DNA of 32,064 nt from Xanthobacteraceae bacterium (GTDB lineage Bacteria > Pseudomonadota > Alphaproteobacteria > Rhizobiales > Xanthobacteraceae): positions 1 through 32,064 of the forward strand of contig JASHVC010000659.1 of NCBI GenBank assembly GCA_030039655.1. The letters are read 5' to 3'. A program made the translations under genes and the position numbers. Each line of letters begins with the position of its first letter. The first letter of the stretch is position 1. The notes under the pieces were generated by a model. It ran no database searches and was not told the origin of the DNA. It worked only from the letters and a program-made list of their open reading frames with translations. Of the stretch, positions 6,014 through 29,585 are shown piece by piece.

Positions 6014-6148
6014 AGCATCCTCCACTTCATAGGGGAAGTTGTTTACGTTCGATCCACTTGATGTATGAAATCAACCCACCGATCTGAGCGAGCTACGGCG
6101 AAAGCGCCAGGCACGTTTCTCGACATCATCGTCAAGGTCGACGTACCC

Positions 6149-7328: not shown

Positions 7329-8600
7329 ATGGCAATTATAAGTTACCTCAAGGACCTTATGTTCACGAGGGCACCCTCCCCGCTTCATCGCTACGGTAAG
7401 CAGCGGCGGGAAATGACTGGGAGGTATCGGGCGCGTAACCCAGCACTCGTCGCGACTCTTATGTTCTTTGATCTTCTGGGTTCGCTTCACCCGCGCCGCA
7501 AGGGATCCTTGCCGATCGATCGCCCCATTCGGATATTAATTTGCAATTGGGGACACTTGGGTGATGTGATCGCAATATTGCCGCTGCTGCAGTTTCTCTC
7601 AGATCACCCACGTATTGGGAAGATTGGTGTCCTCGTCGGATCATGGTCAGCGTGCATCGTTTCTGACCTTCCGTTTATCGATAGAGTCCATTGTTTGGAT
7701 CATTTCTTGCTGGATCGGGCGGAAAAGACGAAATTCCAGAAGATACGAAACTACTTCGGACGACAGAGGAAGGTGATCCAAGAAATAAGAGATTATGACT
7801 ACGATGCCTCCGTAGATTTGTTTCCCGTCGTTCCCGCCACTCACCGGCTGATCTGGAAAGCGGGAATTCCCACACGAATTGGTTTTTACAGTAGCGGCCT
7901 CGGCACTTACTTGACGCATCCCTTTAGCTGGCCACACGACGATGAATACATATTGACCAGACAGTTGCGGCTGTTACGGCCTATTCTTGGAGCCGACACG
8001 CCGGAGGCGCTACCCGCTCTTTATCCTAGTTTAATACGTTCAAGCTTAGCCGAGCGCGGCCTAACGGCCGACCGGCGATACGTCCTCATGCACATGGGCG
8101 TCGGCGATTATCGAAGCTGGCCTTTTGCCAATTGGCTGGAGCTTGGCCGTGGTTTGAAGCAACGACGGCGAGACATCGTCTTTACCGGGGCGAAAGGCCG
8201 CGAGGCTGAAATGGCTGCCGATGCTGCAAAGCAATTGGGCGCGCAGTCTGTCGCCGGTGCGTTGTCTTGGAATGAATTTGTCAACTCGATTGCCAACGCG
8301 GCCGTAGTCATTTCAGTCGACACCGTAACCGGCCATTTGGCGGCCTGCTTTGGAATCCCGAGTATTGTCTTGCTTTCTGGCCGGTGGGGAAGCCGATTTT
8401 TTCGACCGAACAATGTCAATGCTGTCACATTAACGCATCCGGTCGGCTGCGCGCCCTGCTACCGGTCCATGGGCTGCCCGGCTATGGCTTGCGTCCAATT
8501 CATTTCGGTGGCGGACGTATTAAGCGTATTCGATGAGATTACTAGGAACTCAAAACGCGGTACCACTCTTGTTCTCCTCGATGCCGATCGGAAATCCTGA
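7329..8600 (+). CDS. Family 9 glycosyltransferase (heptosyltransferase-like)
   Basis: The 423-residue product has an unusual N-terminal extension of about 65 residues before the GT-B N-lobe, which begins with IRILICNWGHLGDVIAILP (residues 67-85), the glycine-bearing GDV loop of ADP-heptose:LPS heptosyltransferases. The C-lobe shows ISVDTVTGHLAACFGIP (Asp331 in the conserved D-x-x-x-x-H motif). The C-terminal cysteines C374, C377, C383 and C388 match the Cys-rich end seen in many GT9 proteins. It is predicted to transfer a heptose or another sugar to a glycan intermediate on the cytosolic face. AGGATAGG just upstream of the ATG is a good ribosome-binding site. A second GT9 gene occurs at 22363. 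Family certain, sugar unknown. Confidence 0.92.
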   Translation: MAIISYLKDLMFTRAPSPLHRYGKQRREMTGRYRARNPALVATLMFFDLLGSLHPRRKGSLPIDRPIRILICNWGHLGDVIAILPLLQFLSDHPRIGKIGVLVGSWSACIVSDLPFIDRVHCLDHFLLDRAEKTKFQKIRNYFGRQRKVIQEIRDYDYDASVDLFPVVPATHRLIWKAGIPTRIGFYSSGLGTYLTHPFSWPHDDEYILTRQLRLLRPILGADTPEALPALYPSLIRSSLAERGLTADRRYVLMHMGVGDYRSWPFANWLELGRGLKQRRRDIVFTGAKGREAEMAADAAKQLGAQSVAGALSWNEFVNSIANAAVVISVDTVTGHLAACFGIPSIVLLSGRWGSRFFRPNNVNAVTLTHPVGCAPCYRSMGCPAMACVQFISVADVLSVFDEITRNSKRGTTLVLLDADRKS

Positions 8601-8705: not shown

Positions 8706-10184
8706 ATGAACTATCCAGCTCTATTCTTTTGGGTATTGCTCCTTGGGAGCCTGATGGTCAGTCCCAGTGCACTGCTTGTGCTGCTATTTGCGTCGATGTC
8801 TTTTGCGAGCTTGGCATTAGTGCCGCCCGATATGGTAGGTGGAATATCGATCTTACCTGAACTGATGTTTGCAGTTATTCTGATCTTGAAAGTAATCACC
8901 CCGAAATTGCTGCCACCATCGCCAGACCTTACCGACGCTCTGCAACTCCGCAATTTGGGTTACTTGTTCCTATTTCTATTGGTCGGCCTGGTAGCGACCG
9001 TGATAGCGCCAAGGCTATTTTTGGGCGAGGTCGTTGTAATGCCGATGCGACTATCGTCGGCTCCAGACGTCCTGGCACCGGTCATATCGAATTTCACTCA
9101 ATCGGGCTATGTATCTCTGTCCGTCATGACGGTTCTTGCCGTCGTACTTATGGCGGATGAACCAAGATTCGCGGACACCCTGCTGAAGGGTGTGCTTGCT
9201 GGCGGCATTGTGTGTATCGCCACCGGTCTGGTTGACCTTGCGGCGTCGCTTGCCGGGAGCGAGAACCTGCTCGAGCCATTCCGCAATGCCAGTTACGCTT
9301 ATATTACGACTGCGGAGCTGGGCGGGACGAGACGCGTTGTCGGTTTTACACCTGAAGCTTCAGTTTATGGACCAATCTGCGTCCGATTAGCGGCTGCGGC
9401 TTCGCTCCTTCGCCCTCTCTACGCCGAAGGACGCCAACGCTTCTTCGCTACCATAGTTACCATCGGGCTCCTGGGTATGGCGCTCCTCTCCACGTCTTCG
9501 ACGGCCTACGCCGGATTAGCAGTATTGGGACTGGTATACGTGGGGAACTGGATCAGACGTGCCGTCTCTCCCACGCCATTAGGCCAGAGCGGGCTTCTTG
9601 GCGAATTACTGGTGGGTCTGGTTCTATTGATTGTTCTCGTGTCTGTTTTGCTTGCAAATGCGCAAGTATTCGATCCATTGCTCAATCTGGTTCAAGAGGT
9701 CATATTCAATAAATCCACCAGCTCTTCTTTTTATGAGAGATCCCATTGGAATGACGTCGCTTGGAAGGCGGTGGCTTCAACCTGGGGGCTCGGCGTGGGG
9801 TTTGGCTCCACACGAGCTTCGAGCTGGTACGTGGCAGTCATTAGCAATACTGGAGTGCTTGGGGCTGTCTTGATGGCAATCTTCCTCGTCCAAACTTTTC
9901 TACGACGTGCAATCTCGCCAGCTCGGTTACCATCGGAATTGCTGTCCGTCCTGAAGTTGTCGCTGCTGCCGGCCTTGGCTATGGCTGGTCTCAATGAACC
10001 CGGGCCGGATTTTGGGCTGTGGACGGCTGCTGTATTTGGGGCGATCGGAGGGATGGCGGCCCTCCGTCCTCGGCGTAGTGTCGTGCAGCCTATGACATTG
10101 GGCAATGCATTCACTGCACGTGCCGCCGTCCACAAGGCCGTAGGCTACCGGCCGTTCGGTTGGCCAGCTTCGCGCCATCGTTGA
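8706..10184 (+). CDS. O-antigen polymerase/ligase-like membrane protein (Wzy-type)
   Basis: The 492-residue product is hydrophobic throughout with roughly ten or more transmembrane helices. Two conserved patches support a Wzy/WaaL-superfamily enzyme: GFTPEASVYGP in the large loop near residues 216-226, and GLGVGFGSTRASSW (near 360-373) followed by SNTGVLGA, the form seen in exopolysaccharide polymerases. Such proteins sit in the inner membrane and join undecaprenyl-linked repeat units in the periplasm. AAGG lies 6 bases before the ATG. It lies between the GT9 and GT2 genes and is likely co-transcribed with them. With the flippase at the right edge and the Wzc-like protein, it makes a Wzx/Wzy-type set. 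Polymerase is favoured over ligase from context. Confidence 0.85.
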   Translation: MNYPALFFWVLLLGSLMVSPSALLVLLFASMSFASLALVPPDMVGGISILPELMFAVILILKVITPKLLPPSPDLTDALQLRNLGYLFLFLLVGLVATVIAPRLFLGEVVVMPMRLSSAPDVLAPVISNFTQSGYVSLSVMTVLAVVLMADEPRFADTLLKGVLAGGIVCIATGLVDLAASLAGSENLLEPFRNASYAYITTAELGGTRRVVGFTPEASVYGPICVRLAAAASLLRPLYAEGRQRFFATIVTIGLLGMALLSTSSTAYAGLAVLGLVYVGNWIRRAVSPTPLGQSGLLGELLVGLVLLIVLVSVLLANAQVFDPLLNLVQEVIFNKSTSSSFYERSHWNDVAWKAVASTWGLGVGFGSTRASSWYVAVISNTGVLGAVLMAIFLVQTFLRRAISPARLPSELLSVLKLSLLPALAMAGLNEPGPDFGLWTAAVFGAIGGMAALRPRRSVVQPMTLGNAFTARAAVHKAVGYRPFGWPASRHR

Positions 10185-10222: not shown

Positions 10223-11098
10223 ATGAAGTTGGGTCTTGTCGTTGCGTCCCATGGTCGACCGGCTCTCCTACAAAAAGTGTTAAGGAGAGTGATGGCGCAG
10301 GCCAGAATCCCTGATGAGATTATTCTTTCCCTGGTCGACCCCACAGACGCTCCCGAAGCTTCCTTTGTGCCTCTGGACTTGAGAATTGTGTTTGGAAGCG
10401 CGGGTCTTACATCACAGCGAAACCGAGGAATATCCTGCCTTATCAACAAAGCGGATGTCATTGCGTTCATTGACGACGATTTCATCGTGGGTGATGATTA
10501 TTTCCTCAATGTGGAGACAATTTTCGAGCAGGATGATTCGATCGTCGGAGTAACCGGCGAAGTCATCGCCGATGGTGCCAACTCGTCTGGCATGACATTT
10601 GAACAGGGTCGACGGTTGATAGAGCGATACGGTCGAGCCCAAAAACCGTCGGGATTCACGCGCGACGTCCTAGGCACCTATGGGTGTAACATGGCGTTTC
10701 GCGCCGCGCGGATTGGCTCGTTACGATTCGATGAACGATTAGTACTGTATGGTTGGTTGGAGGACCTCGATTTCTGTGGGGCGCTCAGTGGCTCTGGCAG
10801 AATTGTGAAAACCAACCTCGCCTGGGGGGTCCATCTCGGCAGCAAGGGGGGTAAGGGTAGCGAGATTCGCCTGGGTTATTCGCAGATTGTCAATCCGGCT
10901 TATATCGTCCGTAAGGGCAATTTGCCGCGTGCTTTCGCGCTCCAGCTCGCTGCTCGGAACTTCCTCGCCAACCTCGCTAAGAGTATTCGCCCGGAAAGTT
11001 ACGTTGACCGCCGCGGCCGGCTATTGGGCAACCTGCTTGGCACATTTCATTTGATCAGCGGCCAAGCGACTCCCGAATATGTGCTGAAGTTGAAATAA
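10223..11098 (+). CDS. Family 2 (GT-A) glycosyltransferase
   Basis: The 291-residue product begins LGLVVASHGRP, a typical first strand of GT2 enzymes. The metal/nucleotide-binding aspartates are in FIDDDF (84-86), preceded by SQRNRGI near 64-70. The putative catalytic base lies in WLEDLDF (Glu180/Asp181). It should be an inverting, cytosolic transferase adding a sugar to the lipid-linked glycan. It starts 38 bp after the polymerase gene on the same strand, so co-transcription is likely. It ends the left-arm plus-strand row, is followed by a small stem-loop and faces a minus-strand methyltransferase gene. The donor sugar cannot be read from the sequence. Confidence 0.92.
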   Translation: MKLGLVVASHGRPALLQKVLRRVMAQARIPDEIILSLVDPTDAPEASFVPLDLRIVFGSAGLTSQRNRGISCLINKADVIAFIDDDFIVGDDYFLNVETIFEQDDSIVGVTGEVIADGANSSGMTFEQGRRLIERYGRAQKPSGFTRDVLGTYGCNMAFRAARIGSLRFDERLVLYGWLEDLDFCGALSGSGRIVKTNLAWGVHLGSKGGKGSEIRLGYSQIVNPAYIVRKGNLPRAFALQLAARNFLANLAKSIRPESYVDRRGRLLGNLLGTFHLISGQATPEYVLKLK

Positions 11099-11253: not shown

Positions 11254-11916
11254 CTAAGTCCAATTGGCGTTGAATACCAGGATATTGTCCGAGTACCAAC
11301 ATGCAGTTCCCGCTGCTTTCCATTGGGCAGCGAGCCTCGCCGAACTGCTCTTGTCGAAAGAATGCCCTCTCTTTTCGAACTTCTCGATCCAATAGGAATG
11401 AGGTCGCTCGTTGATGTGGTCGGTACCGCCTTGACCGGGCGTCGCTGCCGACATGGCGACGAGTGGCGATAGTTTGCAGAGCAGATCGACGTAACGTGCC
11501 GCCGCCCAGCTTGGCAGATGCTCTGCGACTTCAAAACTCACGGCGAGATCGTATCGCGGCCCATTAAGGTGGTCGCGAGTGACATCAAATTTTTGCACAG
11601 GGAGCTGTCGATTGTGGCAATAAGCCAACCCGGCGTCGGAATATTCAAGGCCATATACTTCGCAATTCTGATGGCGAAACGCGTCGAGAAGCGCGCCTGT
11701 GCCGCAGCCTACATCGATTACTATTCGAGGATGAAAGGCATCCAGCATTGAGGCGGCCATGACTGCCGCACTCATCGCCGAGGGGCCCTCGACCATCTGT
11801 TCGTAATAGTCGTGATTATAAATTGAATTGTGAGGCGTCGTTAGATGAGTGCCAACTTTCGCAAGGTGCTTCGATTTGTGCACCACCGCTTTCATCCAGT
11901 GGGAGAGCACGCTCAT
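11254..11916 (-). CDS. Class I SAM-dependent methyltransferase
   Basis: The 220-residue product has motif I IDVGCGTGALL (about 67-77), an acidic GLEYSDAG after strand 2, and a post-motif segment VSFEVAEHLP that matches the small-molecule methyltransferase family. A ribosome-binding site GAGGG lies 6 bases before the ATG. It probably methylates a sugar hydroxyl, a carboxylate or an attached acyl group of the glycan. It is the last gene of the minus-strand export/modification set, 312 bp downstream of the adenylation-carrier-thioesterase gene. In ABC-exported O-antigens, terminal methylation can be the export signal read by the C-terminal domain of Wzt; whether this enzyme does that here is inference. 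Target unknown. Confidence 0.9.
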   Translation of the reverse strand: MSVLSHWMKAVVHKSKHLAKVGTHLTTPHNSIYNHDYYEQMVEGPSAMSAAVMAASMLDAFHPRIVIDVGCGTGALLDAFRHQNCEVYGLEYSDAGLAYCHNRQLPVQKFDVTRDHLNGPRYDLAVSFEVAEHLPSWAAARYVDLLCKLSPLVAMSAATPGQGGTDHINERPHSYWIEKFEKRGHSFDKSSSARLAAQWKAAGTACWYSDNILVFNANWT

Positions 11917-12228
11917 AGTAAACCCTCATGACAGTTTTCATATGTCGCTCATGGCAGCGAAAGCATGAGTGTGCAATTCAATCCGGACCAAAACCGATCG
12001 CATGAAAGCTGCAGCACCGATCCTCGCTCGACTAGTGCGTTCGCAATAGGTCGGAATTTTGTCCATAGCAAGGAGCTAGCGACCCGGCCAAACATTAAGT
12101 GGGCTGAGAAGACTGTTCCCTCGTTTTTGCCGCGGCGCCGGGTGACCATGTACAAGATCTTTTTCGCATTCCGGCATAATCCAACCTCATCACACAACCG
12201 CTGCGTCAAGCGCAATCCCCGCTCCTTC
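11917..12228. other. Intergenic region with an inverted repeat
   Basis: This gap of 312 bp lies between the carrier-protein gene and the methyltransferase. CTCATG (11948-11953) and CATGAG (11964-11969) are inverted repeats 10 bases apart, 32 bp before the methyltransferase start, a possible operator. A 97-codon minus-strand frame (11949-12242) spans the gap but has no recognisable protein features. No clear promoter was found. Confidence 0.45.
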
Positions 12229-14829
12229 TCAGGTCGACGCACTTTGGCTCAATACCCGTGCAAGCGATTCGACGTGACTTGTGACACAGGTCTTGTGCTC
12301 ACCTGGAATGACGACGTGCCGAACGTTTGAAGCCAATGCGGCCCAGGGCCGAGTGGACCAGTAAAAAACGCTCGCATTGTGTTCACAAACAATTGCAAGG
12401 ACGCTGCAGCGCAGTCTCGGAGGCACATAGTTTGCCATTGCGTGAAAATACAGTTCGTTACGCCGATAGCTCGCAGCAACGTCGGAGTTCGGTATGTTCT
12501 TACGCCCAACAAGTGTTTTTTTTAGCGACTCGAATGCGAGGGCAATCCACTGATTTGCGCTCCCGCCGGAATCTCGTGTCCACATCCACACCGCCGGAAT
12601 GACCTTGCGTCGGAGCGCGTGCCGCAGAGATGGCGGCCAAGCTACCGCAGACATACCATGTACCAATCGATTTAGGCCGCGAAACACCACGCGCGAGTTT
12701 AGCGAGAGGCTTTCAACCAATACGACAGAGTCGACTTCACGACCGAAGCGTTCGAGTTGATGCGCTATCTCCCATGCCAGCAGTCCGCCATTACAGTAGC
12801 CGCCAAGGTGGAACTTGCCGTGGGGTTGCAGCGCCAGTAACCGAGGCAGATACAAAAGCGCCATCTCTTCCATAACAAGTTCGGATCTTTCGTCGACACC
12901 TGGAAACGGCTGAACGAGATAGACCGCTTGATCCGAGTCGAGCAACGCAGCCAGCTTCGATGCATAAAAGCCGCGCGTCTCATAATCTCCATGGCAGAAA
13001 AATAGTGGCGTCCCTGAGCCATCTTTGACTTTTGTTACGAGCTCGCCGTCATCCGGAGCGTCCGTTGCAGCGCTGCGGGCAAGCTCATGGATCGTCAGTG
13101 CTTCCGTCAAAGCAGATGGCGGGAAGCGATGGCCTACCATCGTTTCAACGTCAAGAAGCATCTGTGCGGCAAGAAGGGAGTCTCCCCCCGCCTCGAAGAA
13201 ATCATCATGGATGCCTATATCCGCACGCTGCAATAATCGCTGCCAAATTTCGAAGATCTGAAACTCAAGCAACTGCTCTGGAGGATCGATCCGATGTTCA
13301 CGTTTGAGGGCCGCCGCAGCAAGTTCGGCTCTGAGAATCTTGCCGGTATGACTCTTTGAGAGTGCCGCAACGATGTCGATCCGTTGCGGGATTTTGAATG
13401 CGGCTAAGTGGCCACGAAGAAAGTCCTTCAACTCAACTGCCGTAGTCAGAACCCCCGGCTGGACAACGACAGCGGCCTCGACGTTCTCTCCCAATCGTGG
13501 ATGAGGAACGCCGAAAGCCACCGCCTCACGGACGCTCGGATGGCGCAGCAAGGCCTGCTCAATGTCATTGGGAGAGACTTTTTCGCCACCGCGATTTATC
13601 AACTCCTTGGCGCGGCCTACCAGCGTCAAAAATCCATCTGGATCAACGAAGCCGATGTCTCCCGTCGGTAACCAGCCGTCCTGCAAACCGGCTCCTGTCG
13701 CTCCATCCGCACCAAAATAGCCAGGCATGAGGCCTGGGCCGGTCACAAAAATCTCGCCAGTTTGTCCAACAGGAAGGGAGACGCCCGCTGACCCGCGCAC
13801 CTCCAGCTCGCCTGATGGGATCAGGCCGGCCGTGCCAGCCTTGCGCTTCACTGGAGGCGCCGGATTGGCGGCCATCACACCAGCTTCGCTTATCCCATAA
13901 ACTTCAAGAACCGGACAATCAAGAACAGCCTCCAGTTCCGTGCGCGTTCGACTGGGAAGAAAGGCGGAGCCCGATGTGACGAAGCGAAGAACGCCCTTTG
14001 GCGACCGCTTTGGGTTCGATCGAAATTCATCCAGAACCGCCTGGTAAAATGTCGGGCCGGCGGAAAACCATGTGGGCCGCAGCTCGTAAAGCCAATCGGT
14101 CAAGCGTTCTGACCGAACTCCGATTGGTATCGCTATGCTCTCACCAAGAAGAAGAGGAACAAGGACGTTCAACTTGGAACCCGCAGCGTAATAGGTGGGT
14201 AGCACACAAGCCGCGCGGTCGTCAGCGGTCAGCCCGAACCAGCCCGCCATTTTGCCGGCCAGGTCAAGCATGTTGCCATGGGTCACGGGGACTAACTTTG
14301 AAGGTCCTGTCGTCGCCGATGTTCGCAATAGCAAGATTGCGGATCGCGATGAAATTTCGGGTACAGACCGCGAGATCCCTTTGCCAGGACGAATACACCG
14401 CAGTTCAAAGCTTGACAGGGAGGTCGATGTCTTGGAGGCCTCGAAGATTCCGCACAAGTCGCCTTCCGCCGCCGCGCGTGCGGGGGACTCGACCCAGCAT
14501 GGAACAATCAAGGCATCTAAGTTTAATCTTGCCAACTCCTGCTCGAATTCACCGTGCGTCAGCCTCGGATTTAGTGGCACGCAAGTAGCGTGCGAGGCGA
14601 TGGCGACCGTGCTCAGCACCGATTCCAGGCCACTGGGAAGGGCAATACCTACTTGCGCGCCGTACTCGACACCGGCCGCGCACAACGCATCCCAAATTCT
14701 TCCGATTAGACCTATCAAGTCTTGATAGGACAGTGCATCGAGCCCAGAACTGATGATTGCTGGCCGGTCGCGATCGCGTGTCGCATGTTGAACAATGATG
14801 TCGAAAAATGTATGCTGCACTCTACACAT
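12229..14829 (-). CDS. Stand-alone adenylation-carrier-thioesterase (A-PCP-TE) protein, NRPS-like
   Basis: The 866-residue product has three domains. Residues 1-510 are an AMP-forming ligase: phosphate loop RTSATTGPSKLVPVTH (169-184), EVYGISEAG (about 309-317), Asp391 in WLPTGD, and the terminal catalytic Lys497 in SHTGK. Residues 520-590 are a phosphopantetheine carrier with Ser551 in FFEAGGDSL. Residues 605-866 are an alpha/beta-hydrolase thioesterase with GGYCNGG, so the nucleophile is Cys679 rather than Ser; the probable acid is Glu706 (VLVES) and the base His845 (GEHKT). No condensation or ketosynthase domain is present. The amino-acid-binding Asp motif of NRPS A domains is not evident near LPTYYAAG, which suggests an acyl or aryl acid substrate. 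It probably activates an acid, loads it on its carrier and transfers it to a glycan or amine. It lies in the minus-strand set with the ABC exporter and asparagine-synthetase homologue. Confidence 0.9.
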   Translation of the reverse strand: MCRVQHTFFDIIVQHATRDRDRPAIISSGLDALSYQDLIGLIGRIWDALCAAGVEYGAQVGIALPSGLESVLSTVAIASHATCVPLNPRLTHGEFEQELARLNLDALIVPCWVESPARAAAEGDLCGIFEASKTSTSLSSFELRCIRPGKGISRSVPEISSRSAILLLRTSATTGPSKLVPVTHGNMLDLAGKMAGWFGLTADDRAACVLPTYYAAGSKLNVLVPLLLGESIAIPIGVRSERLTDWLYELRPTWFSAGPTFYQAVLDEFRSNPKRSPKGVLRFVTSGSAFLPSRTRTELEAVLDCPVLEVYGISEAGVMAANPAPPVKRKAGTAGLIPSGELEVRGSAGVSLPVGQTGEIFVTGPGLMPGYFGADGATGAGLQDGWLPTGDIGFVDPDGFLTLVGRAKELINRGGEKVSPNDIEQALLRHPSVREAVAFGVPHPRLGENVEAAVVVQPGVLTTAVELKDFLRGHLAAFKIPQRIDIVAALSKSHTGKILRAELAAAALKREHRIDPPEQLLEFQIFEIWQRLLQRADIGIHDDFFEAGGDSLLAAQMLLDVETMVGHRFPPSALTEALTIHELARSAATDAPDDGELVTKVKDGSGTPLFFCHGDYETRGFYASKLAALLDSDQAVYLVQPFPGVDERSELVMEEMALLYLPRLLALQPHGKFHLGGYCNGGLLAWEIAHQLERFGREVDSVVLVESLSLNSRVVFRGLNRLVHGMSAVAWPPSLRHALRRKVIPAVWMWTRDSGGSANQWIALAFESLKKTLVGRKNIPNSDVAASYRRNELYFHAMANYVPPRLRCSVLAIVCEHNASVFYWSTRPWAALASNVRHVVIPGEHKTCVTSHVESLARVLSQSAST

Positions 14830-15051
14830 ACCACTGTTTTTGGGGCTGAACAGGGTCCCACTCAGCTTACCAGGGACAAAAGCCCTGTCGACAGTTGAAT
14901 CGGACTTCGACTACGGATGAAGATCAACGCGCCTTCCCTAATGAGACCCGCCAAGCTCATATCGTGGCAACATTTTATCTCTTCACCTCCAGTCACCCCG
15001 ATAGTCGGATATTCACATGTTGAGGAAAATTTTGACATAGCTGCAACGGTA

Positions 15052-17055
15052 TCATGCATTGGCAGTTTTGATCGGTTCGAACGGTGGAATCTCGCACATC
15101 GCAGTATCTTTCGCTCGAGCCTTGAATGCTTGCTCGAGCAAATATGCATTGAGTATGGGCCATACGGGACTAATGCTCTCTTCTCCTTCTGTCGCGCGCT
15201 GGACCGTCGCTCTCGCCAAGTAACCGTCCCATACCGGACTTTCGAGGAAGGAGCGGCTTGTGCTTACGTCAAGTAACCAGGATTTCAACGCGCCACGAGC
15301 CCAATGGTCCATTGGTGAGATAAAGCCGACCTTGATTTTGCGCAGCCGGATCGCATCAGGCATCACTCCTTGCATTGCGATGCGCAGCACACGCTTTGAC
15401 AGGCCGCCTCCGTTTCTGCTCGTATCCGGTAGGGAAAAGGCATAAGTAACAAGGCGCCAATCGAAGAACGGCATCCGCGACTCAATACCATGCGCCATCG
15501 ATGCGCGTTCAAAGCTTGCGGTAGTTGTTGGTACCCCATTGCCGTGAAAATTGGTGAACATTAAGGCTTGCAGGCTCGTAAGGTTTCGAGCGCGCGGATC
15601 TGAACTGCCATTATAGAGTCGTGCGGGACCAGTGTGGGGTCGCGACAGAAATTCGGCTGAACTGGTGTAGCGATGGCGCGCGCGCATCCCCTGAAGCAAA
15701 GCGCGCAACGACTGCATGGCACCCGGTCGCTTCAAAAAGTAGCGAGCTAATCGTGGAATCTCGCCCAGATAATTTATTTGTTCAAATCCGAAATTTCCGC
15801 CGACGAGACCTCGAATAACACGACGCATTTCCCAATAGCGCCGGAAGTCGAGCTGATTTACAGCCATCTGCGCAGCAGCTTCGAGATAATCTGGATCGCT
15901 GCCAAGCATTCCATCGGCAGCCACACCATCGAGGCTCACGCGAACGCCGGCGTGACGCATGGCGCGATAGAGAATCCACGATCCTACACGTGGGAACCAA
16001 TAGATTCTTTCATGGTCGAATATGACTCTCTCGATGCTATTGACCGCCAATTTTTCATCGATGTCGTGGAACTGCGGCACCAACCCAGTGTGATCAACAA
16101 TAATCTCGGCTTGCTGACGCTCGTCAGACGGCATGCCCGGAAAGCAGGCAACGAAGGCACGCCGCGAGTCTAGCGGAACACCGGCAAGGGGGCAGCCACG
16201 GCGGAGTTCCGCCAAGGCGCAAGCAATTGCGCCGGAGTCCAAACCGCCGCTCAGTGTGATTGCCAACGGAACGTCGCTGCGAAGCCGTAGGCGGCAGGCA
16301 TCAAAAAAAAGGGCGCGTAGTTCCTCCGCTTGTTCATTCAGGGTCGGCCGCGGCTTGGGTAAGTGATCGAGTGTGTTCCACCATTGATTGATCGTGGTAC
16401 GTCCATCAGCCTCGACCAGCATGGTTTGACCACCTAGCAGGCGACGAACTCCGGGCAATAGTGTGTACGATGTAGCTTCCTGCCCGTCGATATTAGTCAG
16501 CGTCTCGCTGACAATATCCTTATCGAGGGTGCCGTCACACCAGGATAAGGTGAGAAACGCCTTGAGCTCCGACGCGAAGATGAAGGCACCAGCACGATGG
16601 CTGTAGTGCAGTGGTTTGATGCCGAACCGGTCGCACGACAAAAACAGCCGACGCTCTTGAGTATCCCAGACGGCGAAAGACCATTCGCCATTGAAACGGA
16701 GCAGGCAATCCTGACCCCACTGTACATAAGCGGCGAGAACGACCTCGCTGTCGGAGTCAGAAACGAACCGGTAGCCAAGGCGGCCTAGCTCCTCGCGCAG
16801 TTCAACGTAGTTGTAGACCTCGCCGTTGTAGGTCAGCCAATACCGCCCCTCCGCATAGGACATAGGCTGCCGCCCACGCTCGGATAGATCGACGATGGCG
16901 AGTCGACGATGGCCGAGCCAAAGCCGTGCCTCAGGAAAATGCTCAATACCGAACCCATCAGGCCCACGATGGGCCAAACTATGGGTAAATGCGCCAAAGG
17001 CGTCCCCCGAAAGATCTTGGCTCGCATAACCCCAATAACCCGTAACGCCACTCAT
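15052..17055 (-). CDS. Asparagine-synthetase-like amidotransferase lacking the glutaminase Cys
   Basis: The 667-residue product has the AsnB layout: a class II glutaminase-like domain (1-210) with HRGPDG (29-34), RRLAIVDLS (50-58) and NGEVYNY (77-83), then an ATP-pyrophosphatase domain with the SGGLDS loop (269-274). Two key sites differ. Residue 2, the catalytic Cys of all active class II glutaminases, is Ser (codon AGT), and the in-frame TAG directly before the ATG excludes another start. The segment matching SGEGxDE is DGVAADG (376-382), so the catalytic Glu of AsnB is replaced by Val378. It may use free ammonia or an amine to make an amide, or may be inactive. AGGG lies about 8 bases before the ATG. 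It lies 82 bp after wzt on the same strand; similar amidotransferases occur in exosortase-linked polysaccharide clusters. Confidence 0.9.
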   Translation of the reverse strand: MSGVTGYWGYASQDLSGDAFGAFTHSLAHRGPDGFGIEHFPEARLWLGHRRLAIVDLSERGRQPMSYAEGRYWLTYNGEVYNYVELREELGRLGYRFVSDSDSEVVLAAYVQWGQDCLLRFNGEWSFAVWDTQERRLFLSCDRFGIKPLHYSHRAGAFIFASELKAFLTLSWCDGTLDKDIVSETLTNIDGQEATSYTLLPGVRRLLGGQTMLVEADGRTTINQWWNTLDHLPKPRPTLNEQAEELRALFFDACRLRLRSDVPLAITLSGGLDSGAIACALAELRRGCPLAGVPLDSRRAFVACFPGMPSDERQQAEIIVDHTGLVPQFHDIDEKLAVNSIERVIFDHERIYWFPRVGSWILYRAMRHAGVRVSLDGVAADGMLGSDPDYLEAAAQMAVNQLDFRRYWEMRRVIRGLVGGNFGFEQINYLGEIPRLARYFLKRPGAMQSLRALLQGMRARHRYTSSAEFLSRPHTGPARLYNGSSDPRARNLTSLQALMFTNFHGNGVPTTTASFERASMAHGIESRMPFFDWRLVTYAFSLPDTSRNGGGLSKRVLRIAMQGVMPDAIRLRKIKVGFISPMDHWARGALKSWLLDVSTSRSFLESPVWDGYLARATVQRATEGEESISPVWPILNAYLLEQAFKARAKDTAMCEIPPFEPIKTANA

Positions 17056-17137
17056 CTAATAGCCCTGGCCTGTGGCACCCGCGACTGCCTGTGACCGCAG
17101 ACCTGCCACGACTCCTTCACTCGAGTGCGCCTTTGCC

Positions 17138-18454
17138 TCACCTAAGGACTTCTGACGGACTCAAATCTCTCTTCGAACTTTCGCTAAAGACTTTGGAGAC
17201 GCTCACGGTCGAAACCGGCACGATCGAGCCATGATCCAGCGTGTAAGGGAAACTTCTCTTTGGGTCTGGGCTTTCAAAAATTTCGATAGTGACTACCTGC
17301 CGCACATAATCGCACGTTTCCGTGTTGTGCGGTCCTATCCAAAAGTCGAGCGTGTAAAGACCGGGAACCAATGGTGGCAATTCAATTCGGAGCTCAACGC
17401 GAAACGTTCCAGATGAACCGCCAATGAATGGCTCGCTCTTCGGCGATGCTTGCATGATACTGGCTGAACTCCGATCGGCAATGTCAACTGCTATATGTAC
17501 GGCCGGGCCTCCCGGTTCGGACTCTATGACGGCGCGACAAACAAGTATTAATTTCGGTTGCGTGCCCTCGACGTCAACGTCGATTGTTGCGAAGTATACT
17601 GCGGGCTTTGCAAGACCAGGCGGCCGCGTCCACGAACAGGCTTCCGATATCAACCTTTCTGAGGAGTAATGCTCAAGCGCTCTCACAACGTCGAATTTGG
17701 GGGAAGCCATACCTTTGCGCAAGACCAAGCCGTGTGTGCAAAGGCTGCGGATCGCCGCCTGATTGTGACTTACAAACAGGATCGTCCTGCCTCCTCGCGC
17801 AACTTCACTCATTTTACCGAGGCATTTTTTTTGAAATGCTGCATCCCCAACAGCCAAAACCTCGTCAATAATTAAAATCTCAGGCTCGAGGTGCGCGGCC
17901 ACTGCAAAAGCGAGCCGCACGTACATTCCGCTGCTATATTGCTTTACAGGTGTATCAAGAAATCTCTCGATCTCGGCAAACGATACAATCTCATCAAACT
18001 TCTTTCTGATTTCCCGCTGTGTCATTCCAAGAACCGCGCCATTGAGAAAAATATTCTCCCTGCCCGTGAGTTCGGGATGAAAGCCCGTTCCTACCTCAAG
18101 CAAACTCGCGACGCGGCCGCGCAGCACCACTCGCCCCTCGGTAGGTTCGGTGATGCGACTTAAGACTTTCAGTAAGGTGCTCTTTCCGGCGCCATTGGGA
18201 CCAATGATGCCCAACACTTCGCCCTCTTTCACCTCAAAGCTTACATTCCTGAGGGCCCAAAATTCCTCAATCGTATCACCCTGCACAATCTGACGGCCGT
18301 GCAGCAAATCGGCGGTTTTTCTCGCAAAGTTCTGAATTTCACGCCCAATTACGTCGCGCAGCGCCGTGTATTTGTAACGGCGGCCAATCTCGGTTCTGTG
18401 GCCGATCAGATAGCTTTTTGATAAGTTTTCGATTGTTATGATGCTGTCAGACAT
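17138..18454 (-). CDS. wzt: ABC polysaccharide exporter ATP-binding protein with C-terminal glycan-binding domain
   Basis: ATG 18454 is preferred to the TTG one codon earlier. The 438-residue product has Walker [10 protein letters not shown] (85-93), signature [11 protein letters not shown] (173-183), Walker B ILIIDE (193-198) and the switch His230 in FVSHN. The N-terminal 60-residue insertion before the Walker A region is typical of polysaccharide exporters. From about 265 to 438 an added beta-rich domain ([21 protein letters not shown]) fits the Wzt C-terminal carbohydrate-binding module, which in E. coli O9a-type systems recognises the finished glycan end before export. It follows the permease gene by 16 bp, so the two form one transcription unit. 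It powers transport of a lipid-linked glycan to the periplasmic side of the inner membrane. Confidence 0.95.
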
Positions 18455-18470
18455 CAACTTACACGCTCAA

Positions 18471-19295
18471 CTAAATCAGATCGGCAAAGCTCTTTTCCAT
18501 CTTCCGGAACTGACGAATTCCGAACCATAGAAACCACATAATAACGGCCGTGCTCACCAATTGGCCTGGCAGGTACAATGCGCTTTCTCCTCGCAAGATG
18601 CACCAACGAAACCCGTCGATAACGCCCACCATCGGATTAAGCGAATACAGTAGATGCCACTTCTGGGGAATCACGCTTGAACTGAATCCGACCGGCGATA
18701 GATAAAGACCAAGCTGCACGACGAACGGAATGACATAGCGAAAATCGCGGTATTTTACGTTAAGCGCTGTAATCCAGAGGGAGGGTCCAACGCTCGCCAA
18801 AAAAGCCAAAAGTACAAAAAAAGGCAATATAACAATTCTCCAGTCAGGCAGATATCTGTACCAACCCAGGAGCACAATTAAAATGCAAAAACTGATAAGG
18901 AAATCGGCAAATGCGACAACAATGGTCGCTATTGGAAGAATCACACGCGGGAAATAAACTTTGCTAATCAGCCTCTCATTGTTGATCAGGCTGTTGGAAG
19001 CGTCGCTCAAGCCGGTGGAAAAGAAGGTCCAGGGCAGGATTCCGGCGAGCACCATAAGGGCGTAAGGTGCGTTACCCTCCGTCGGCAATTTGGCAATACG
19101 GCCGAAAATCACCGTGAATACAATCATCGTCAGAAACGGCCGTATGAGTGCCCAAAGCACACCGATAACCGTCTGCTTGTATCGAACGGCTAGATCTTTC
19201 CAGGCGAGCACCCGGAATAGCTCGCGATATTGCCAGAGATCAAGCCAGTAATGGCGGTCGGCCCGGCCAGCCTCGATGACAATGGCATCGCGCAT
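18471..19295 (-). CDS. wzm: ABC-2 polysaccharide exporter permease
   Basis: The 274-residue product has six hydrophobic segments and family motifs: LAWKDLAVRYKQTVIGVLWA near residues 30-49 just before the first helix, NNERLISKVYFPR in the first cytoplasmic loop, and SPVGFSSS and LNPMVGVIDGFRW near the C-terminus, as in Wzm/KpsM-like permeases. ATG 19295 is preferred over the GTG at 19319, because a promoter-like sequence at 19332-19359 would put the transcript start only about six bases before the GTG. It forms the membrane channel for the adjacent ATPase. As first gene of the minus-strand set, it probably leads expression of wzt and perhaps the modification genes beyond. Confidence 0.95.
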   Translation of the reverse strand: MRDAIVIEAGRADRHYWLDLWQYRELFRVLAWKDLAVRYKQTVIGVLWALIRPFLTMIVFTVIFGRIAKLPTEGNAPYALMVLAGILPWTFFSTGLSDASNSLINNERLISKVYFPRVILPIATIVVAFADFLISFCILIVLLGWYRYLPDWRIVILPFFVLLAFLASVGPSLWITALNVKYRDFRYVIPFVVQLGLYLSPVGFSSSVIPQKWHLLYSLNPMVGVIDGFRWCILRGESALYLPGQLVSTAVIMWFLWFGIRQFRKMEKSFADLI

Positions 19296-19331
19296 AACAT
19301 CAACACTCGCTTGCGGCACCCAGCGTCACTT

Positions 19332-19359: not shown

Positions 19360-19880
19360 GCTCGACCGCGGAAGGCCATAAAGCGCCGCCAATACGGGGG
19401 CGAGGACTCGATGTGCATCACCTTTGGGACAACCGGCGTCCGGATAAACCCTGCTGCCGTCTCATAACAGAAGCAATCAGCCATACACTTAGTCGCTAAT
19501 GATGCGGCCATTCTTAGGCACAGGAAAGGCGCGAATAAACCTACGGGCGCTCTTTCGCGACGCGCAACTCCCATGCATCTTCTAGCCATTCATGGGACGG
19601 CACGCTGCTGCCACAAAATATCGTTGAAGATGACATCATGCCGCACTATGGTAAATGGTCCAGTGGGAACGACTAAGCCGTTGCCAGAACGTCCAGCTTC
19701 GGTTAGCAGGTCGATCGGGATGAGCTGTTACACGCTGGAGATGGACGTTGCGCACAGGCACAAACGAGGAAGCTAACGGTTGAAAGCGAGTTTACCACTC
19801 GCTGGCCAGCCTTGCACGCCTGCTCGGCCAACTCGACCTGTATTCTCCGCCAATCGTTGAGGCATGAGAAGCTGAGGTTT
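19360..19880. other. Divergent intergenic region between wzm and a GT2 gene
   Basis: More than 500 bp without a convincing gene. The left end carries the possible wzm promoter. On the minus strand a closed stretch of about 40 codons around 19605-19730 has protein-like composition (GLVVPTGPFTIVRHD) but no start or family match, and could be a gene remnant. An inverted repeat lies at 19785-19803. No clear plus-strand promoter for the GT2 gene was found. Confidence 0.45.
19785..19803 (+). promoter_or_regulatory. Inverted repeat upstream of the GT2 gene
   Basis: AGCGAGT and ACTCGCT form a perfect 7-bp inverted repeat around TTACC, 77 bp before the GT2 start. It could be an operator or a leader hairpin; nothing identifies a binding protein. 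Confidence 0.35.
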
Positions 19881-20825
19881 ATGACTGAAGCTTCAGTAGT
19901 TATCTGTACACACAATCCGCGCTCTGACTATCTTTGCCGCGTCCTAGATGGATTACGTCATCAGTCGCTTCCTTACGATCAATGGGAGCTTTTGCTTGTC
20001 GACAACGCTTCTGAGCCTGCCCTCGCGTCCCATTGGGATCTCTCCTGGCATCCGAATGCCCGTCATCTACGCGAAGATGAACTAGGGCTTGCATCGGCCC
20101 GCCGATGCGGAATTGCGGCCGCAACTGCAGATTTTCTGGTCTTTGTTGATGACGATAACGTACTAGCGGAGAACTACCTTTCGGAAGCTCTGACGATCAA
20201 ACGAGAATGGCCCAAGCTTGGAACCTGGGGTAGCGGTACAATCATTCCAGAGTTCGAGCAACAGCCTGCGAACTACCTCAGGCCTTATTTGTATCGATTG
20301 GCTCTTCGTGAAAATAAGGAACCCTTTTGGAGCAATGTGTTGTCATGCGGCGACGCTATTCCACCTGGCGCAGGGATGTGCGTGCGCGTAAGCGTAGCCA
20401 ATGAGTACTGTCGCCTTCACGTAAAGGATACAATTCATCTCACTGGCAGAAGTGGCGGAACGCTTGTGGGACATGAGGATTACGAAATCAGCTTTGTCGG
20501 TTGCCACCTCGGGTATGGTATGGGAGTGTTTCCGGGCCTGCGAATGATACATTTGATCCCGAAAGAACGACTGTCAGACGAGTATTTCATTCGCCACGCC
20601 GAAGGGAACCAAGTCTCCGGAGGCTTACTTGCTTACAAATGGTTGGGCGAGGTACCGCCCAACCCATTTGCCTTGAAAGGGATCCTTTCGTTGATCAAGC
20701 ACGTGGTCCTGACTGGCGGATTTGATCGAAAGCTCTATCTAGCAGAAATGAAAGGAAGAATCGCCGCTCGTCGACTAGTCGCGAGACTCAAGGGTAAGGG
20801 CCAATCCGGCGTCGCGGCTTTATAA
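19881..20825 (+). CDS. Family 2 (GT-A) glycosyltransferase
   Basis: ATG 19881 is preferred to the in-frame ATG at 19812 because GAGG precedes it by 4 bases and the encoded EASVVICTHNPR is the usual first strand of GT2 enzymes. In this 314-residue frame the nucleotide-binding aspartate is in LLVDNAS (about 39-45), the metal-binding triad is in FVDDDN (Asp90-92), and GLASARRCGI (69-78) is the typical loop before it. GHEDYEIS later in the protein probably carries the catalytic acid pair. It is an inverting cytosolic transferase for the glycan. It begins a plus-strand row with the GT-B and GT9 genes, with gaps of 151 and 294 bp. Sugar unknown. Confidence 0.92.
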   Translation: MTEASVVICTHNPRSDYLCRVLDGLRHQSLPYDQWELLLVDNASEPALASHWDLSWHPNARHLREDELGLASARRCGIAAATADFLVFVDDDNVLAENYLSEALTIKREWPKLGTWGSGTIIPEFEQQPANYLRPYLYRLALRENKEPFWSNVLSCGDAIPPGAGMCVRVSVANEYCRLHVKDTIHLTGRSGGTLVGHEDYEISFVGCHLGYGMGVFPGLRMIHLIPKERLSDEYFIRHAEGNQVSGGLLAYKWLGEVPPNPFALKGILSLIKHVVLTGGFDRKLYLAEMKGRIAARRLVARLKGKGQSGVAAL

Positions 20826-20976: not shown

Positions 20977-22068
20977 ATGACGCGCGCAACTCGCCTACAG
21001 ATTCGCCCCATAAGGGTGCTGTCCATACCGGGGCAACGCCACGCGCAAAATTCCTATTTCGGCCTACTGTGGAACGCTGTGCAGGGGGCTGGAATCAAAA
21101 TGGTGGACGCGCGAACGACCGCCGCTCTTTTGCTAAAGTTCGACATCCTGCACTTGCATTTCCCGGAACACTTGGTCACCGAGAGACGGCTGCACTCTGC
21201 CTTGCTGATTGCGCCGATGTTCCTGTGCTACGTCGCCATCGCGAGAATGCTGGGCAAGAAATTCGTATGGACCATCCACGAAGTCTACCCAAAGCGACGG
21301 CAATGGCTGGCCCGGCCCTATCTCTGGTGTCTGCGCATTCTTGCGAACGCCTACATTTTTATGAACCGCACTTCGGAGCAAGAGTTCCTTAATCGATACC
21401 CCCGCCAGCGGCGAAAGGTGGCCTGGAGAATATCTCACAGTTCCTATCCAGTGACGAAGATTTCCACGATCCGCCGCAACGAAGTTCGTACCTCGCTGAC
21501 CCAAGGAGCCGATTGTCTCCTCGTGGGGTTCCTCGGGGAGATCAGACCCTACAAGAATCCCGCCGCACTCGCATTCCTACCAGCCACGGATCCGCACGGC
21601 CGGCTCGTGCGGTTGGTGGTGGCGGGAGCTTTTCACGAATCTTGTGACGTCGATGATATCGAAGCGAAGCTCAAGGCGATCAATCCCAATCGGTTGGTCC
21701 GAATCGAGGTTCGACTTTCTGACGACGAGCTCTCGGAGGCAATTCAATCCATCGATGTCGTCTTCATGCCCTATCTGCAAGGATGGAATTCAGGATTTGC
21801 CTTGTTGGCCTTGGCGTGCGGATCGCGGCTACTTTGTTCCGCGTTGCCGATGTTTCACGAAATTAGAGAGACGTTGGGTTCTCCTTGGATCTACTTGTTC
21901 GATCACACCACAGCGGACATGTCACAGGAGCTTATTGGCGCCATAGCCAGCATTTCGCTGGATAAACCTGACGAAGGAGATCGAGCCCGTCTTAAGCAGT
22001 TTCTTGCCGATAGAAGCTTTGAACAAGCTGCCTCGCTTTACTCCAAACTATATAGGTCGATTCTTTAA
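20977..22068 (+). CDS. GT-B fold glycosyltransferase
   Basis: The 363-residue product begins with a short basic leader and the strand RVLSIPGQRHAQNSY, followed by ILHLHFPEH near residue 56 and FVWTIHEVYPKRRQW near 91, both typical of the N-lobe of GT4-like enzymes. The C-lobe starts at VGFLGEIRPYKNP near 185. The nucleotide-binding region is FMPYLQGWNSGFALLALACG near 264-283, where the usual EX7E glutamates are not evident, so it belongs to a divergent subgroup. GGAG stands about 7 bases before the ATG. It probably adds one sugar in the cytosol during repeat-unit or chain synthesis. Family placement is fairly sure; subfamily and donor are not. Confidence 0.88.
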   Translation: MTRATRLQIRPIRVLSIPGQRHAQNSYFGLLWNAVQGAGIKMVDARTTAALLLKFDILHLHFPEHLVTERRLHSALLIAPMFLCYVAIARMLGKKFVWTIHEVYPKRRQWLARPYLWCLRILANAYIFMNRTSEQEFLNRYPRQRRKVAWRISHSSYPVTKISTIRRNEVRTSLTQGADCLLVGFLGEIRPYKNPAALAFLPATDPHGRLVRLVVAGAFHESCDVDDIEAKLKAINPNRLVRIEVRLSDDELSEAIQSIDVVFMPYLQGWNSGFALLALACGSRLLCSALPMFHEIRETLGSPWIYLFDHTTADMSQELIGAIASISLDKPDEGDRARLKQFLADRSFEQAASLYSKLYRSIL

Positions 22069-22362: not shown

Positions 22363-23469
22363 ATGTCCAGATCTACGGAGCTGCAACGTAATCTGGATTA
22401 CTATCTCGGCAACCTCGCCGCTCTAGTTTTTGCCGTTCATAGGCCGATCACTCCAACAATTGCAAACCCCGCACGCATAGGGCTAATTCAACCGACCGCA
22501 ATCGGCGACCTGATTGTGGCCTCTGGTCTGATCGCACACATCCGCGAGATATTTCCTCAAGCCGAGCTTTATCTTCTGCACGGCGCATCAAACCGCGCTG
22601 CGCTTGAGCTGCTGGAACCTGGTATCGTCGGCCAGATCGTTGATTTTACGAAGCCAGTAGCGGCGCTCAATCACATTCGTTCACTCGGGTTGGACATTCT
22701 TGTTGATCTCGTCCCATGGTCAATGCTTACCGCGCTGCTATGCCGGCTTTCCGGCGCTACATTAACCCTCGGCTTTGCAGCTCCGGGAAGATACCGCCAA
22801 TTCCTGCTTGCCCAGACAGCGAAGTATTCCTGTCGCGTACATCAGTCCGAAAACTTTAGGGTATTGGCCTCCTGCTTAAGTCCCATGCAGGACTATAAAT
22901 ATCGACTGCGGAAATCATTTCCTAAACCGGACATTCAGCTTCCTTATGATCGCCTGATCGTTTGTCACATTCAGCCTGGAGGCTCTCAAGCTCGCGCGAA
23001 GACCTGGCCGGCGGATCGATGGATCGATCTAGCCGGCCGCTTCTGCGACGCCGGATATGCCGTTGCCTTTTCTGGATCGGCCGCGGACCGATCTTCGGTC
23101 GAAAACGTGGTAGCCCAGGTCGAAGGGCCCGGACGGCTATGTATTGCGCTCGCTGGCAACATAACTTTGCCTGAGTTCTGCTTTGTGTTGCAGCACGCGA
23201 TGTTAGCCATATCTGTCGACACCTCGCCGCTGCACCTTGCCTCCGCTGTCGGGACCCCTGTCGTCGGGATTCATGGCCCGACGCTGTCGCGTCAGTGGGG
23301 AGCGATCTCACCTAACTCGAGGAGCATCGATGCTGCGCACCCGGCGGCCGGTTACATACAATTTGGCTATGAGAGTCACCCGTGCGCGCAAGAAATCATG
23401 CGGTCAATCTCGGTCGACCAGGTCTACCAGGTGGCCTCAACGTTCTTGCCAAAAATGAAGCTTGGATAG
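22363..23469 (+). CDS. Family 9 glycosyltransferase (heptosyltransferase-like)
   Basis: The 368-residue product has a 37-residue N-terminal extension before the first strand RIGLIQPTAIGDLIVASGL, the GT9 signature. The second domain begins at LIVCHIQPGGSQARAKTWP with the conserved K-x-WP segment, and carries ISVDTSPLHLASAVGTP (Asp near 283), the binding motif for the ADP-sugar, then GIHGPT. It is predicted to transfer heptose or a related sugar to a lipid-linked acceptor. It is the second GT9 of the locus, about 14 kb from the first, and only distantly similar to it. The upstream 294 bp hold no gene. A stem-loop separates its stop from the convergent kinase gene. Confidence 0.92.
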   Translation: MSRSTELQRNLDYYLGNLAALVFAVHRPITPTIANPARIGLIQPTAIGDLIVASGLIAHIREIFPQAELYLLHGASNRAALELLEPGIVGQIVDFTKPVAALNHIRSLGLDILVDLVPWSMLTALLCRLSGATLTLGFAAPGRYRQFLLAQTAKYSCRVHQSENFRVLASCLSPMQDYKYRLRKSFPKPDIQLPYDRLIVCHIQPGGSQARAKTWPADRWIDLAGRFCDAGYAVAFSGSAADRSSVENVVAQVEGPGRLCIALAGNITLPEFCFVLQHAMLAISVDTSPLHLASAVGTPVVGIHGPTLSRQWGAISPNSRSIDAAHPAAGYIQFGYESHPCAQEIMRSISVDQVYQVASTFLPKMKLG

Positions 23470-25975: not shown

Positions 25976-25997
25976 ATCCACTTCTTGTCTAAAACCA

Positions 25998-26025
25998 ATT
26001 CTACACCTCCACGATGGAGGCTCAA
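25998..26025 (-). promoter_or_regulatory. Promoter of the kinase gene with a palindrome in the spacer
   Basis: On the minus strand -35 TTGAGC (26020-26025) and -10 TAGAAT (25998-26003) are 16 bases apart. The spacer holds the inverted repeat CCTCCA-N3-TGGAGG (26006-26020), which fills the space between the two boxes and touches the -35. Transcription would start near 25990, some 15 bases before the ATG. A protein bound to the palindrome would block RNA polymerase; the regulator is unknown. Confidence 0.5.
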
Positions 26026-26259
26026 GATACACCCCTGCGCTGCAGCACAGTGGTCCCTGATATTTGCGCAAGCACCTAGGTCTCGGGCTGCAGCACCGCT
26101 AGCTCACATCAACCTGCGCTCGGCCGGCGCCAATTGTGGCGAAGGCCGATTTTGGTGGAAGCGCCTCGTGTCTACCCCGAGCTTGGGGGCAGGGGCCAAG
26201 CCTTGGTCGCAGCACTGGTGCTCCTGTCAATCCGTCGTCAATGGCGACCGAGTAATTCC

Positions 26260-26451: not shown

Positions 26452-26498
26452 CTCTCGCGATCAGGTAGTGTTAACGGGGGCCCGATGTGAAAACGGCG

Positions 26499-27374: not shown

Positions 27375-27392
27375 ATCCCGCTCGGTGCCGAG

Positions 27393-28700: not shown

Positions 28701-28833
28701 AATGCCTCGTTTAGTGATTGGGATGCCCGGAGGATGCCCGCGGCAACCGACCAGCGCAAGGTGGTCCAGTCAAGCCGCCTGGCCGCAAGATCAGTCGGTG
28801 GCCGCAAATGTCCAACCTTTCGCGGGGGGACTA

Positions 28834-29532: not shown

Positions 29533-29585
29533 GGAGGCTACTTTCCGGTGAACCCGTCAAACATGGATCGACTAGGGGCAGGCGA

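Follow-up and report, generated by a model that had tools for sequence, protein, structure and literature searches.

A putative glycan export and decoration gene block with an altered AsnB homologue in a Xanthobacteraceae contig

Gene Content of the Locus

The window, which is the whole stretch of DNA analysed here, has a length of 32,064 bases and is equal to its contig. A block of five minus-strand open reading frames (ORFs) runs from 19319 down to 11254 in the order Wzm, Wzt, AsnB homologue, A-T-TE protein, and methyltransferase (Table 1). The five genes of the original prediction are all present as ORFs at their predicted positions, and their Pfam and NCBIfam types agree; the end given for Wzm, 19295, does coincide with an in-frame ATG, but the called ORF begins at the GTG at 19319. 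The intergenic gaps measure 13 bp between Wzm and Wzt, 82 bp between Wzt and AsnB, 222 bp between AsnB and the A-T-TE gene, and 312 bp between the latter and the methyltransferase gene, so that Wzm and Wzt form the only tight gene pair of the block. With gaps of 222 and 312 bp, co-transcription is no more than a possibility, and this counts against the best explanation developed below. Promoter- and terminator-like sites are rarer than in shuffled sequence. A minus-strand ORF of 97 aa (11949-12242) with no Pfam match takes up the greater part of the space separating the A-T-TE and methyltransferase genes; it is probably a chance ORF. At an E value of 0.001, the sole PDB match of the methyltransferase is CalS10 (7.2e-5).

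Table 1. Coordinates of the block genes and of the flanking genes in the window.
Feature	Position	Strand	Remarks
Wzm-type ABC-2 permease	18471..19319	-	282 aa from GTG at 19319; PF01061 (ABC2_membrane) 1.5e-20
Wzt-type ATPase, C-terminal beta-sandwich	17138..18457	-	438 aa from second codon, ATG
AsnB homologue, altered branch	15052..17055	-	TIGR01536; Asn_synthase and GATase domains
A-T-TE protein	12229..14829	-	866 aa; AMP-binding, AMP-binding_C, PP-binding, Thioesterase
SAM-dependent methyltransferase	11254..11916	-	220 aa; PF13489 (Methyltransf_23) 3.3e-12
GT2	19812-20825	+	divergent from Wzm
Weak GT4-like	20977-22068	+	below cut-off; divergent from Wzm
GT9	22363-23469	+	flanking glycosyltransferase, divergent from Wzm
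GT4	6065-7246	+	flank convergent with methyltransferase gene
GT9	7329-8600	+	flank convergent with methyltransferase gene
Weak Wzy_C-like membrane protein	8706-10184	+	below cut-off; flank convergent with methyltransferase gene
GT2	10223-11098	+	flank convergent with methyltransferase gene

Glycosyltransferase genes lie on the plus strand on both sides of the block. The designation "possible glycan export-and-decoration module" first given to the block stands as a description of it. A Wzc-type protein and a Bac_transf sugar transferase are encoded at 23558-31377, on the same contig as Wzm/Wzt. Relatives of the Wzc-type protein occur in 24 of 248 genomes of the family to which a Bradyrhizobium genome (G004) belongs, at a threshold of 1e-150 and with a best identity of 45%. 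The 20 window proteins scanned include no recognisable flippase (Wzx). The presence of Wzc-, sugar-transferase-, and weak Wzy-like genes beside Wzm/Wzt may reflect a mixture of two export routes, which again speaks against the best explanation. Two other ORFs are less easily placed. A minus-strand ORF of 443 aa (4694-6025), beside the glycosyltransferases, has no significant Pfam match. The ORF at 851-3127 encodes 758 aa, the C-terminal part of which is weakly spermine-synthase-like (E 0.017, below cut-off); its product was matched in 6 of 27 genomes, the best at 54% identity in G381, a genome of the same family as G004.

The Export Pair

An ABC-dependent exporter of the Wzm/Wzt type requires an ABC-2 permease together with an ABC ATPase, and the two genes adjoin here. 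The permease reaches 59 bits against the NCBIfam model galactan_ABC_perm, below its cut-off, and the ATPase matches ABC_tran at 7.7e-25. Against the Pfam family Wzt_C the window Wzt gives a weak score of 19.3 bits, below the cut-off of 30.4; at E 0.01 the same family is matched by 36 of the 46 aligned Wzt members, the window protein included. A structural model of Wzt was built from an alignment of 46 of the 60 Wzt hits (pTM 0.54), its C-terminal part resting on the Aquifex rows. It aligns with full-length Aquifex aeolicus Wzt over both domains, with 35% identity in the aligned part. Sequence and model thus indicate that the window Wzt carries a Wzt_C-type C-terminal domain, putatively glycan-binding, and the presence of the additional domain foreseen for this protein is borne out by the Aquifex alignment and by the 36 matching members. 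In A. aeolicus, the C-terminal domain of Wzt binds a methylated terminal sugar, the methyl cap, according to the part of the article available (PMC9445017).

The A-T-TE Protein

The A-T-TE protein has adenylation, carrier, and thioesterase domains with their active residues, namely Ser551 in the carrier, Cys679 at the nucleophile place of the thioesterase, and His845. Conservation was assessed in the best 120 of 1570 hits, a set to which the window protein belongs. All 120 rows have the carrier Ser and the C-terminal Lys, the thioesterase nucleophile place is Cys in all 117 rows that cover it, and His is found in 116 of these 117. Such a Cys would be compatible with acyl transfer and with hydrolysis alike. 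CmaE is an enzyme that uses Cys. It is described as an aminoacyl shuttle in the accessible portion of its report (PMC8748450). Among solved structures, the adenylation domain is closest to oxalate-CoA ligases (6.1e-75 and 2.1e-74), and an amino-acid-activating match, linear gramicidin synthase, ranks later (8.3e-41). These matches point to a small carboxylic acid as the most likely substrate of the domain.

Altered Residues of the AsnB Homologue

The AsnB homologue scores 352.2 bits against TIGR01536, the model of the glutamine-hydrolysing asparagine synthase, above the cut-off of 267.1. Against TIGR03108 (XrtA/PEP-CTERM amidotransferase) it reaches 273.8 bits, below the cut-off of 816.9, and against NF033535 (lasso-peptide cyclase) 255.9 bits, below the cut-off of 525. 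On these scores an exosortase-type amidotransferase and a lasso cyclase, respectively, were rejected, and with the former (274 bits against 817) falls the parallel to exosortase clusters that had been drawn. A Pfam scan of 20 window proteins showed no exosortase or PEP-CTERM gene, the contig ending at the window.

The N-terminus of the protein reads Met-Ser-Gly, so that the glutaminase nucleophile Cys2 is replaced by Ser2. A stop triplet directly before the ATG leaves no room for a longer N-terminus. In the AsnB relative AsnH of Lactobacillus casei, this replacement (C2S) abolished the production of glutamate, as stated in the portion of the study available (PMC3885529). In the synthetase domain, alignment with Escherichia coli AsnB (1ct9) places V378 at E348, D381 at D351, and G382 at E352, and in a profile alignment with human ASNS this motif falls at E364, D367, and E368. 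Only one of the three pocket acids (D381) is therefore kept, E348 having become Val378 and E352 Gly382. In human ASNS these three residues form an acidic cluster, to which an inhibitor was bound through its amino group in modelling; with ammonium chloride, the variants E364A, E364Q, and D367A showed no activity. As far as the accessible text goes, the mutation evidence covers E364 and D367 and not the E368/E352 position (PMC6748925). By alignment, the ATP site is kept in the window protein, with the motif SGGLDS (S269-G270-G271, D273, S274), D381, and K575.

A model of the protein, for which the alignment took 58 of the 120 AsnB rows, has a mean pLDDT of 88.6 and a pTM of 0.89. Its fold matches are, in order, the hydroxyamidotransferase 7ylz, asparagine synthetases, and beta-lactam and carbapenam synthetases; in sequence, beta-lactam synthetase is remote from the window protein (2.4e-4 by profile). 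The usual glutamine-dependent amide formation is contradicted by the residues and appears unlikely for this protein. The amide-forming AsnB of the original prediction is consequently not upheld, with Ser for Cys2, Gly for E352, and Val for E348.

Distribution of the Changes among AsnB Relatives

The AsnB set has 120 rows (the best 120 of 3032 hits), made up of the window protein and the 119 relatives closest to it. In a tree calculated by a quick method (LG+G4) with the trait columns left out, the window AsnB falls in a branch of 28 of the 120 rows (SH-aLRT 95). The E352-type Glu is absent from 27 of these 28 rows, hereafter the altered rows. The exception, P0146, has both Cys2 and the Glu and may be a retained, regained, or chimeric sequence inside the altered branch. 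Residue 2 is covered in 25 of the 27 altered rows, window included, and Cys is absent from all 25. Sequencing error is an unlikely cause of Ser2, since Ser is also found in 23 of the 24 other covered altered rows. Over the whole set, in which residue 2 is not covered in 6 of 120 rows, E352 is kept in 85 of 86 rows with Cys2 and lost in 25 of 28 rows with another residue. Outside the branch, E352 is lost in a single row, P0142, and Cys2 is lost with the Glu kept in P0150, P0155, and P0160. This small group represents a candidate second, separate loss of the glutaminase nucleophile.

With 27 of 28 branch rows altered and few exceptions in the tree, the joint loss of Cys2 and E352 is nearly a single event. 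A Fisher value of 8e-21 was therefore rejected as independent evidence of the joint loss, the tree needing three changes for each state; an independent-pairs test has three pairs, which puts significance out of reach.

Other positions of the active site are kept to different degrees. D351- and K449-type residues are present in all 27 altered rows, and the full ATP-site set (SGG, loop Asp and Ser, D381, K575) in 22, window included. The remaining five show losses in the PPi loop, with Asp replaced by Asn in three and Ser by Leu in two. An Asn77-type residue is lost in 5 of 27 altered rows, as is a Glu525-type residue. The E352 place varies among G, S, D, A, and K. Two pocket acids are kept in 16 of 27 altered rows and one in 11, in contrast to exactly two in all 92 rows keeping E352. 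In the two-acid altered rows the second acid is mostly a Glu at the E348 place. Loss of Glu at that place was tried as a marker of decay and rejected: Glu occurs there in none of the 92 E352-keepers, which have H, Q, S, T, or C, and in 12 of 27 altered rows.

Conservation of 95% or more in 62 outer rows is seen at 197 columns; in the branch, 33 of these drop under 80%, as against 7 in the sister group of 29 rows. The columns lost in the branch comprise 19 of 42 inside three synthetase-motif windows and 14 of 155 elsewhere, a comparison for which the windows were set after the list of lost columns had been viewed. The sister group leans in the same direction at a lower level (4 of 42 and 3 of 155). 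The 27 altered rows measure 645-700 aa and have a mean pairwise identity of 61%, compared with 73% in the sister group. These sequence features speak for the altered branch being a maintained protein with a changed site.

Co-occurrence in Relatives

Co-occurrence was estimated by a proxy, namely homologues on contigs of equal size across the three homologue lists, and not by reading adjacency in the DNA. Close A-T-TE relatives were taken as ranks P0006-P0037 (at least 49% identity), a cut between close and distant that was set after the list had been viewed. Contigs of at least 7 kb were counted, and homologues with no recorded contig size were left out. Sizes 7159 and 3481 were excluded for their different sources, and size 6172 (P0104 with P0203) is uncounted, being below 7 kb. 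At least 7 of 24 close A-T-TE contigs share their size with a listed AsnB after 7159 is dropped from an initial eight, as against 0 of 35 distant ones (best-120 lists; Fisher 0.001). By this proxy, the counts point to an association of close A-T-TE relatives with an AsnB. A Wzt relative is found together with an A-T-TE protein and an AsnB on contigs of 219325 and 64106, and with two AsnBs on a contig of 58205, again by equal size.

Four contigs have two listed AsnBs (equal contig size and source as proxy), and each pairs one member of the altered branch with one from outside. A random draw from the 28 and 92 rows would give such a pair with a probability of 0.36 per contig and 0.017 for four, if rows are treated as independent. 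Equal contig size thus suggests frequent pairing of the altered AsnB with a partner in which the E352-type Glu is retained. One outside partner, P0155 on the contig of 124020, itself has Ser2.

Among more distant relatives the association changes. In the Reyranella order, full-length A-T-TE relatives of 41-46% identity (L142-L152, L157, L158, L001-L003) occur in 14 of 76 genomes, a cut-off copy in G435 being uncounted. No AsnB lies near these genes in any of the 14 genomes within the stretch examined, and a distant ABC-ATPase match to Wzt is found near them in 5. The ORFs around A-T-TE loci were read in eight cases (L001-L007, L018). Ten neighbour ORFs of four Reyranella-order loci were scanned; eight were matched, none of them to a glycan enzyme, the types being DnaJ, xanthine dehydrogenase, acyl-CoA dehydrogenase, enoyl-CoA hydratase, lyase, luciferase, DUF1194, and TctC. 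A function unrelated to glycans is probable for this A-T-TE family. With such neighbours it is not tied to glycans as such, which counts against the best explanation.

Genome samples from the Alphaproteobacteria, in which two to four candidates were scored per genome, so that empty results are weak, gave few matches. No close A-T-TE protein was found in one order (17 of 397 genomes matched at 1e-90, best identity 40%) and none at 1e-150 in a class sample of 385 genomes. A close AsnB was likewise absent from one family (1 of 295 genomes at 1e-110, 40% identity) and, at 1e-120, from the 385 genomes of the class sample. A contig scan with 24 A-T-TE rows gave a top identity of 43% among the best 80 of 586 loci. 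In the Bradyrhizobium genome G004, contig C1 carries at about 41-71 kb (L155, L156) two AsnB-like genes (37% and 27% identity over the best part), both no more than about 30 kb away from an A-T-TE relative of 36% identity. The conserved co-occurrence on which the five-gene module had been staked is thus seen in part: by the proxy, A-T-TE with AsnB, and at times Wzt, recurs in closer metagenomic relatives, but in all 14 Reyranella-order genomes AsnB is missing from the stretch examined around the A-T-TE gene.

Proposed Function and Alternatives

The probable function of the block is to decorate a surface sugar chain with an acid and a methyl group and to export it. As a best explanation, put forward tentatively and at less than even confidence, the block would be a module for ABC-dependent glycan export that also has a decoration arm, in which AsnB acts as a ligase using a nucleophile other than glutamine-derived ammonia. 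The adenylation domain would load a small carboxylic acid onto the carrier. The thioesterase would then hold the acid as an acyl-enzyme and pass it to a sugar amine or hydroxyl and not to water. AsnB would adenylate a carboxylate, with an amino sugar or a carrier-bound partner as nucleophile, acting like the beta-lactam synthetases and lasso cyclases. The methyl group may serve as a tailoring or terminal mark, possibly read by Wzt, and Wzm/Wzt would export the decorated chain. The domain make-up is read from sequence, and from it we infer the substrate, the transfer, the order of steps, and the export of this glycan. In the pathway first proposed, the export pair beside an acid-activating carrier enzyme and a methyltransferase is retained, and the glutamine-dependent amide step assigned to AsnB is not. 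A more specific version, in which the branch, from uncultured bacteria, has given up both glutamine and ammonia and serves as an adenylating ligase for glycan acylation, working with a Cys-thioesterase acyltransferase of the A-T-TE type and a synthetase-competent AsnB paralogue ahead of Wzm/Wzt export, is unlikely as a whole.

The ligase is narrowly favoured because the ATP-site residues checked are all kept in the window protein, with the glutaminase nucleophile and the acidic cluster changed. Paired paralogues, drift at the changed positions, and the five altered rows lacking a loop residue bring a pseudoenzyme almost level with it. The altered AsnB could then be the non-catalytic partner of an E352-keeping paralogue encoded elsewhere, regulating or scaffolding glycan amidation, with the A-T-TE arm separate; this, too, is a possible reading about which doubt prevails. 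The four contigs with two AsnBs (equal-size proxy) all show the required pairing, the catalytic columns drift, with 5 of 27 altered rows lacking the full set of PPi loop, D381, and K575, and the length of 645-700 aa in all 27 means that such a protein is maintained. Losses of PPi-loop, Asn77-, and Glu525-type residues, together with the drift at E352, suit a non-catalytic protein and weigh against the best explanation. However, D381 and K575 are present in all 27 altered rows and the full ATP-site set in 22 of them, window included, two acids remain in 16, the scan of 20 window proteins revealed no second AsnB, and the pairing rests on the proxy and not on DNA read.

An ordinary glycan cluster, in which AsnB would make a sugar amide from free ammonia like the uronamide enzymes of the WbpS type, is rather improbable. 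WbpS, an AsnB homologue, is required for the uronamide of Porphyromonas gingivalis according to the available excerpt (PMC7468200), and the window protein exceeds the TIGR01536 cut-off and keeps its ATP-site residues; its acidic cluster, however, has one acid of three where all 92 E352-keepers have exactly two, and the human ASNS variants described above fail with ammonium chloride (PMC6748925, as far as available). Equally improbable is a role of the A-T-TE protein and AsnB in small natural product synthesis or acyl acid modification, with the exporter beside them by coincidence: characterised fungal A-T-TE proteins condense aromatic keto acids (PMC9047271, in the part available) and the Reyranella-order relatives lie near acyl-CoA dehydrogenase and enoyl-CoA hydratase genes, but the window genes sit within a glycosyltransferase cluster on the same strand as Wzm/Wzt, and Wzt relatives coincide in contig size with both A-T-TE and AsnB in two cases and with a pair of AsnBs in a third.

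The ligase and pseudoenzyme readings have different consequences. The family model, that of a glutamine-hydrolysing asparagine synthase, predicts an amidated sugar, which the residues make unlikely for the whole branch. If the branch is a ligase, it would represent a route attaching carboxylic acids to surface glycans and would add to the AsnB-type enzymes that use a nucleophile other than ammonia. A pseudoenzyme would make the paired branches a clean case of a divided AsnB.

Comparison with Known Systems

The two-domain Wzt of the A. aeolicus WzmWzt exporter resembles that of the window; it differs in that no A-T-TE protein or AsnB is described with it in the accessible part of the article (PMC9445017). 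AsnB family members in glycan clusters are known from the WbpS-type uronamide synthases and the XrtA/PEP-CTERM amidotransferases, as far as the available text of PMC7468200 extends. Unlike the XrtA/PEP-CTERM amidotransferase, the window AsnB lacks Cys2 and E352 and lies far below the TIGR03108 cut-off. The AsnB fold is also common to the beta-lactam and carbapenam synthetases and the lasso cyclases; one of the latter, McjC, forms an amide through an acyl-AMP and has no glutaminase domain, according to the portion of the source available (PMC4979651). The window AsnB differs from beta-lactam synthetase and the lasso cyclases in its remote sequence, and no ring closure is implied for it.

The transporter of the Vibrio cholerae O1 antigen is of the Wzm/Wzt type. 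In the part of the article available, the O1 locus holds genes for the N-acyl tetronate, for transport, and for modification, the antigen being methylated in serotype Ogawa (PMC3441752). The likeness lies in acyl, transport, and modification genes sharing one locus; AsnB and a fused A-T-TE protein are not described there in that part, and no perosamine synthesis genes were recognised among the 20 window proteins scanned, although such genes may lie beyond the contig. Neither the five-gene combination, nor the altered AsnB branch, nor its link to A-T-TE proteins was found among the open-licence literature matches listed. The view that no described system has this combination is in agreement with that search, but the theme itself has a precedent in V. 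cholerae O1. What is known is therefore the general theme of acyl, transport, and modification genes, as in V. cholerae O1, and what is new is the altered AsnB branch.
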